A stretch of DNA of 64,000 nt from Fervidicoccus fontis Kam940 (GTDB lineage: Archaea; Thermoproteota; Thermoprotei_A; Sulfolobales; Fervidicoccaceae), in assembly GCF_000258425.1 (NCBI RefSeq), contig NC_017461.1, positions 1,022,949 to 1,086,948 of the forward strand. Direction: 5' to 3'. The notes beneath the pieces are model-generated. The model was not told the origin of the DNA. It did not search any database and saw only the letters and a list, made by a program, of their open reading frames with translations. Position 1 is the stretch's first letter. Every line of letters starts with the position of its first letter. Made by a program: the position numbers and the translations under genes. Positions 42,150 through 47,447 of this stretch are shown in pieces.

Positions 42150-45374
<3,225 letters not shown>

Positions 45375-45571: not shown

Positions 45572-47075
<1,504 letters not shown>

Positions 47076-47161: not shown

Positions 47162-47254
47162 TCAGACCCGAGTTCTCCATGAGGGAAAGAGCCCTCCCTC
47201 CATGGTATCCTCAGGCCGTCATTATAAGTGTAGCAAAATAATTTCTTCAAAATA

Positions 47255-47270
47255 GGTTTTTATATTTTTG
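47255..47270 (-). promoter_or_regulatory. Likely main rRNA promoter (TATA/BRE)
   Basis: The minus strand reads CAAAAATATAAAAACC. A start about 25 nt downstream (near 47230) would give a 150-nt leader before 16S. The box directly abuts the 3' end of the GC-rich RNA element at 47270-47405. Confidence 0.6.
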
Positions 47271-47405
47271 TCTCCCCGGTCTACGCTCAGGGAGAAATAT
47301 ACCCGCAACCGGAGGCAGCGATTTCATTCTCGGAGCTTTTGCTCCGTGTCCGCGTGCGCCGCCGGGCGATTGGCCGCGGGCTTGAAGCCCTGAGCTCCCG
47401 GAGAC
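47270..47405 (-). ncRNA. Unassigned structured RNA with a kink-turn, upstream of 16S
   Basis: A 136-nt GC-rich island in AT-rich DNA. In minus-strand sense GTCTCCGG at the 5' end pairs with CCGG-GG-AGAC at the 3' end, closing the molecule. Next comes a kink-turn: strand CCGG-GA-GCTCAGGG faces strand CCCTGAGC-GTA-GA-CCGG, giving an 8-bp C stem, a three-base bulge GTA, tandem G.A pairs and the NC stem, as bound by L7Ae. Inside, CCCGCGGCC/GGTTGCGGG, GGCGGCG/CGCTGCC and the hairpin CGGAGC-AAAA-GCTCCG stack up. The complementary strand would not form the G.A pairs, so the minus strand is the RNA strand. 5S, SRP, RNase P and box C/D signatures are absent. Confidence 0.7.
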
Positions 47406-47429
47406 ATCAAATAATATTAGTGTTAAAAA

Positions 47430-47447
47430 GGTTTTATATAGATTTTG
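47430..47447 (-). promoter_or_regulatory. TATA box of the structured RNA
   Basis: The minus strand reads CAAAATCTATATAAAACC, with the TATA core at 47432-47440. Its distance of about 27-30 bases to the first paired base of the RNA (47405) is the normal archaeal spacing. It lies between the speE stop codon (47493) and the RNA. Confidence 0.6.

Follow-up and report, generated by a model that had tools for sequence, protein, structure and literature searches.

Upstream of the 16S rRNA gene of Fervidicoccus fontis Kam940 (minus strand, 45574..47075; Rfam RF01959, 1508 bits) lies a GC-rich block of 136 nt at 47270-47405, and the question it raises is which RNA, if any, it encodes. All coordinates refer to the 64,000-nt stretch of DNA that was analysed, hereafter the window. 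A preliminary description had placed a structured RNA on the minus strand, and folding of 47265-47412 on that strand gave -70.7 kcal/mol against a shuffle mean of -52.5 (z -4.55), a value equalled by none of 200 dinucleotide shuffles. With a weaker fold on the plus strand (z -2.80), the sequence, coordinates and orientation of the block were borne out. We consider it highly probable (roughly 0.88) that the block is the gene for a Pab19-type guide RNA, an archaeal H/ACA RNA with a single hairpin, located directly upstream of 16S.

At gathering scores, Rfam returned only rRNA and tRNA across the 64-kb window, with no match at the guide RNA locus. Covariance models for 5S, SRP and RNase P RNA found nothing across the window at gathering, and nothing at the locus with the cutoff relaxed to E 10; boxes C, D, C' and D' around guides of 10-12 nt were not seen in the sequence, nor was there an Rfam C/D match. 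These four classes, of which the preliminary description had likewise found no signature, were rejected. Low-scoring matches to H19_1, Fibrobacter-1 and rliG at the locus were set aside as chance.

The hairpin and its kink-turns

Twenty homologous cores were aligned (alignment A1), and a covariance model built from 20 homologues, R1, scored the F. fontis locus at 73.0 bits. The core runs from the lower stem to the ANA box at 47298..47381 on the minus strand, as do all elements described here. In A1, a 10-pair lower stem is followed by a left guide strand ending in CGGCGGC, an upper stem, and a kink-turn with a capped C stem, and the 3' half consists of the right guide CUC(C), the closing strand and the ANA box. 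The two strands of the F. fontis lower stem were placed by A1 at 47372..47381 (GCCCGCGGCC, 5') and, with pair counting, at 47301..47310 (GGUUGCGGGU, 3'); H/ACA hairpins are expected to have about 7-9 bp or more here, and eight of the ten pairs show two-sided changes, with 98.9% of cells paired. The left guide strand AAUCGCCCGGCGGC occupies 47358..47371, including the invariant CGGCGGC at 47358-47364, and the right guide strand CUCC lies at 47311..47314. AUA takes the place of ACA in the box (47298..47300), which stands 14 nt past the upper stem, where the class has 14-16 nt; ANA was found in 75 of the 76 order homologues. The kink-turn of the upper stem, with GA opposite NNU-GA and a covarying C stem, has the form of an H/ACA kink-turn or K-loop. 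A1 places its 5' GA at 47349..47350 and AAUGA (bulge AAU plus GA) at 47324..47328, UGA being nearly invariant. The upper stem itself is the weakest part of the core (~70% paired), and the F. fontis copy is imperfect, with a bulge and probably stacked G.A pairs; that of Pab19 has been described in much the same terms (PMC4652768). By analogy with its class, the guide RNA is probably bound by L7Ae.

Pair counting in A1 revealed two-sided changes in 22 of 25 pairs, with 88.5% of cells paired. The covariation score was 0.467 against 0.172 in shuffles, none of 500 being as good, and fell to 0.05-0.10 when the alignment was slid. An alignment across the phylum with 74 distinct rows gave 0.587 against 0.200 (again 0/500), a value biased towards the model to which these rows had been fitted. 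The interior of the block at 47298-47381 is a standard archaeal H/ACA hairpin with an AUA box, and the earlier statement that normal H/ACA signatures were missing was wrong. The kink-turn in the upper stem had been overlooked by the earlier reader.

Attention had instead been drawn to the base of the block, which was said to contain an exact kink-turn with a C stem, a GUA bulge, tandem G.A pairs and CCGG/CCGG. The sequence does contain it, as CCGG-GA-GCUCAGGG / CCCUGAGC-GUA-GA-CCGG, within an outer stem whose 5' arm lies at 47388..47405 (GA at 47396-47397) and whose 3' arm lies at 47270..47292 (GUA at 47282-47284, GA at 47280-47281). Of the five family members examined, four (G000, G003, G004 and G001) have outer arms that pair through the CCGG helix with an asymmetric loop, and the outer stem is absent from G002. 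The C stem beside the loop shows partial compensation, from GCUCAGGG/CCCUGAGC to GCUCAGAGGC/GCCUCUGGGC, and no C stem follows the loop in G004. The tandem G.A is canonical only in F. fontis; the first pair is U.A in G003 and both are A.A in G001. As judged from these alignments, the outer stem is a terminal stem at the level of the family. The base kink-turn was rejected as the key element, since the stem recurs in four of five members yet the G.A pairs are not kept; it is the kink-turn of the H/ACA upper stem that matters. L7Ae binding at the base in F. fontis is possible, unsupported by conservation. Were the base kink-turn the core of a new L7Ae-bound RNA class or of a regulatory domain in the rRNA leader, the exact motif in F. 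fontis and the CCGG-flanked asymmetric loop of G003 and G001 would be accounted for. We regard this as highly improbable, however, given the loss of the tandem G.A in the latter two genomes, the missing C stem in G004 and the missing stem in G002, whereas the element that is conserved is the H/ACA core.

Relation to Pab19 and placement beside 16S

The proposal of an unassigned RNA or new class did not hold, and the RNA belongs with the H/ACA guides, closest to Pab19 (RF02794). An end-to-end alignment of the Rfam Pab19 model to 47298-47396(-) scores 23.1 bits (E 0.11), and the model matches only this locus in the F. fontis genome. Because this score is below the gathering score of 55 bits, we do not file the guide under RF02794 as curated. 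Among 59 order relatives the same model matched 24, mostly once per genome and nearly always directly upstream of 16S, with a best score of 51.9 bits; in total, 18 of the 32 genera searched gave matches, a few of them weak chance matches, and those in G026 and G014 were excluded as false. In every genome tried the model scored below the gathering threshold, and the Rfam threshold misses the guide in every order genome tried. A scan of contigs with a 16-base Pab19 pattern gave GC-rich chance matches only, and no Thermococci. Both guide strands, GGCGGC and CCUCC, align to the consensus of Pab19, and the homology, as argued from sequence, is based on shared guides, shared place and a chain of intermediates.

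Pab19 of Pyrococcus (RF02794; target 16S U1017) is likewise a single hairpin with an ANA box, a right guide CCUCC, a left guide strand of ~12 nt containing GGCGGC, and an upper stem with a bulge and a kink-turn; its target in P. abyssi 16S, Pab19-S1017, has been tested (PMC4652768). The F. fontis guide differs in the change of the target U to C and in its extra enclosing outer stem. In Thermococcus kodakarensis, the snoRNA Tko-19 lies immediately upstream of 16S and is likely part of the leader, transcribed together with 16S (PMC4247193). Going by its name, Tko-19 is probably a Pab19 homologue, and the Thermococcus guide is probably likewise placed beside or inside the 16S leader; it shares with ours the place immediately upstream of the 16S gene but is euryarchaeal, whereas in F. 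fontis an rRNA-type TATA box parts the guide from 16S. The H/ACA-like guides of Pyrobaculum share with the F. fontis RNA the phylum, the H/ACA class and the upper-stem kink-turn. They mostly lack the full lower stem and the ACA box, in contrast to the F. fontis RNA, whose lower stem of 10 bp covaries and is followed by an ANA box.

R1 matched 75 of 144 order genomes, with one copy in each except G054, and 78 of 200 genomes of the phylum. In 112 of the 116 loci checked, a 16S gene followed on the same strand 72-848 nt downstream; together with the 22 covarying pairs of 25, this provides the covarying homologues upstream of 16S in related species that the preliminary description had named as a test. 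Within the order the count was 72 of 76 loci (109-848 nt, median 198), and outside it 40 of 40 (72-146 nt). The four exceptions comprised G136 (a run of N), G139 (a contig end), G128, with no 16S within the 900 nt examined, and G064. In this last, complete genome (L176, C1:1441785-1441875), the guide strand is opposite and divergent to the nearby 16S, the one clear break in the conserved gene arrangement. Both copies in G054 (L183, C10:78745-78827; L217, C2:404639-404715) lie upstream of 16S sequence. Order families f7 and f11 (e.g. L164, L167, L170, L177) gave no guide match upstream of 16S, an apparent lineage-specific loss; the helix-34 target U is present in them though the guide match is absent. 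The neighbour on the other side, speE, is shared only inside the family. One H/ACA guide gene appears to be fixed upstream of 16S across Thermoproteota and, going by the published position of Tko-19, in Thermococcus as well. Both the RNA class and its arrangement beside 16S have precedents, and what is new is the extension over Thermoproteota, the separately promoted form and retention after target loss; the open-licence papers searched held no description of the guide in Thermoproteota.

A TATA box had been noted upstream of the RNA, and a consensus match was indeed present at about 47432..47441(-). A second TATA-like box, AAATATAAAAACC, also assigned from consensus, lies between guide and 16S at about 47252..47269(-), with counterparts at the same place in G003 and G004; by its sequence and position it is probably the rRNA promoter, which puts the guide RNA upstream of that promoter. 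Of the 63 loci with a guide-16S gap of <160 nt, 34 had a strict TATA motif upstream of the guide, where shuffles predict 11.2, and only one had such a motif between the two genes (1.3 expected); the guide would therefore lie within the 16S leader. At gaps of >=160 nt, motifs stood between the two in 26 of 44 loci (3.2 expected). F. fontis is of this second type, with a TATA box on both sides of the guide. Judging promoters by TATA consensus, the guide would be inside the 16S leader in many genomes, an arrangement that links its synthesis to that of its target.

Guide pocket and predicted target

The pocket is nearly invariant. Among order homologues GGCGG(C/U) was present in 76/76 and CUCC in 72/76, and outside the order CUCC was present in 40/40. 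The predicted target is 16S helix 34, GGAGGUGCACGGCCGUCG (16S 1008-1025; 46051..46068, minus strand), where the usual target U is a C at 46059. In 10 aligned pairs of 16S and 23S genes, GGAG and GCCGUC occurred together at helix 34, GGAGGUGCAUGGCCGUCG, in all ten. We favour helix 34 as the target, with rather better than even confidence. The pairing is non-canonical, with 6 to 7 nt in place of 2 between the paired parts; moreover, shuffled guides of the same composition found a conserved rRNA site in 124 of 300 trials. With shuffled guides performing equally well in about 40% of trials, sequence alone gives the helix-34 target weak statistical support and does not prove it. In five genomes, a strict canonical target pattern, GGRGTNGYYGYYG, gave no more than chance-level matches.

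The earliest model of S1017 had a 3' guide of 7 nt and a target spacer of 3 nt (PMC4652768). In our reconstruction, this description fits the pairing of GGAGG(U)GC-AUG-GCCGCCGUC with GCCCUCC and GACGGCGGC. In the same reconstruction, S1017 would be the U of GCAUGG. This equation with the GCAU uridine was helped by a stretch of Pyrococcus 16S, which we take as a lead only.

The true target might instead be another RNA or rRNA site, such as GCCGCCG in the 530 loop, with which CGGCGGC pairs perfectly, or GGGGGUGCGGGCCGCC in 23S, which matches both guide strands in 10/10 genomes when G.U is allowed. We judge this unlikely: in the 530 loop, GGUG leaves the right guide unpaired, the U-N spacing is absent at both sites, and helix 34 fits the target reported for Pab19.

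Retention of the guide without its predicted target uridine

F. fontis (C1017), G003 and G056 have C where the target U normally stands. U occupies this position in the other 40 of the 43 order genomes that carry the pattern; G002, from the family of F. fontis, likewise has U. Of the 116 phylum genomes with a match, only G000 and G003 lack it. The guide persists in each of the three target-less genomes (F. fontis, 73.0 bits; G003, 69.8; G056, 63.1), and the only near uridine in F. fontis is U1013. Because the guide is kept while the target U is C, the F. fontis RNA would either modify another uridine or act without modifying. These natural cases offer a handle on whether H/ACA particles act on 16S without modification.

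Decay of the guide in the F. fontis lineage after loss of the target U would agree with the C at that position and with the imperfect upper stem, but a relic is improbable for a locus with a 73-bit model score, an intact pocket and box, and its own TATA box; G003, of another genus, also keeps the guide, with a covarying upper stem. A more tenable alternative, though still somewhat unlikely, is that the H/ACA RNA mainly serves as a chaperone of helix-34 folding or processing on nascent 16S, in the manner of snR30/U17 at another place in the 18S rRNA of eukaryotes. Since the guide persists with an intact pocket after the change from U to C, pseudouridylation would then be secondary. The phylum-wide guide would have been selected for helix-34 binding and folding or processing, making it a conceivable, if doubtful, archaeal functional counterpart of snR30/U17. 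The intact pocket of the three genomes, the non-canonical spacing of the two pairings and the fixed place at or within the 16S leader are consistent with such a role. Against it, modification at Pab19-S1017 was tested and reported to be productive (PMC4652768), target-less genomes number just three so far, two of which belong to one family, and U1013 could be the base modified in these genomes. The likeness to snR30/U17 of eukaryotes is by analogy only (an H/ACA particle, the small-subunit rRNA precursor, non-canonical pairing); snR30/U17 is a two-hairpin RNA with another target region, and there is no evidence of common descent.

Returning to the Pab19-type guide, our working model builds on directly computed homology, structure, synteny, pocket invariance, TATA placement and the U-to-C change, and adds protein binding, target pairing, modification and processing as inferred steps. 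L7Ae would bind the upper-stem kink-turn, and Cbf5, with Nop10 and Gar1, the lower stem and ANA box, as in other members of the class. GGCGGC and (C/U)CUCC would pair with GCCGUCG and GGAGG flanking GCAUG in 16S helix 34. The U in GCAUGG would be isomerised under the direction of the guide in most relatives, in line with what has been reported for P. abyssi Pab19-S1017, while in F. fontis the RNP may either modify U1013 or bind helix 34 without modifying it, aiding folding of the 16S precursor. Many relatives would make the guide together with its target from the 16S leader; in F. fontis the guide has a TATA box of its own, and an rRNA-type one comes after it.

Irregularities were also seen within the rRNA genes themselves. 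Near base 5091 of L229 (G002) and in L014 (G018), 16S departs from the conserved sequence right after GUCGCCAG in helix 34, and these departures beside the predicted guide target are probable 16S introns. In the F. fontis 23S rRNA gene, a 139-nt AT-rich insertion at 43152-43290 (-) is absent from nine aligned relatives. Its ends resemble a bulge-helix-bulge, CGGGAG-UAU-CUCGCC ... GGCGGGAG-CUC-CCGGGAG, within UCUUAA/GGUAGCC, and it is a probable archaeal rRNA intron.
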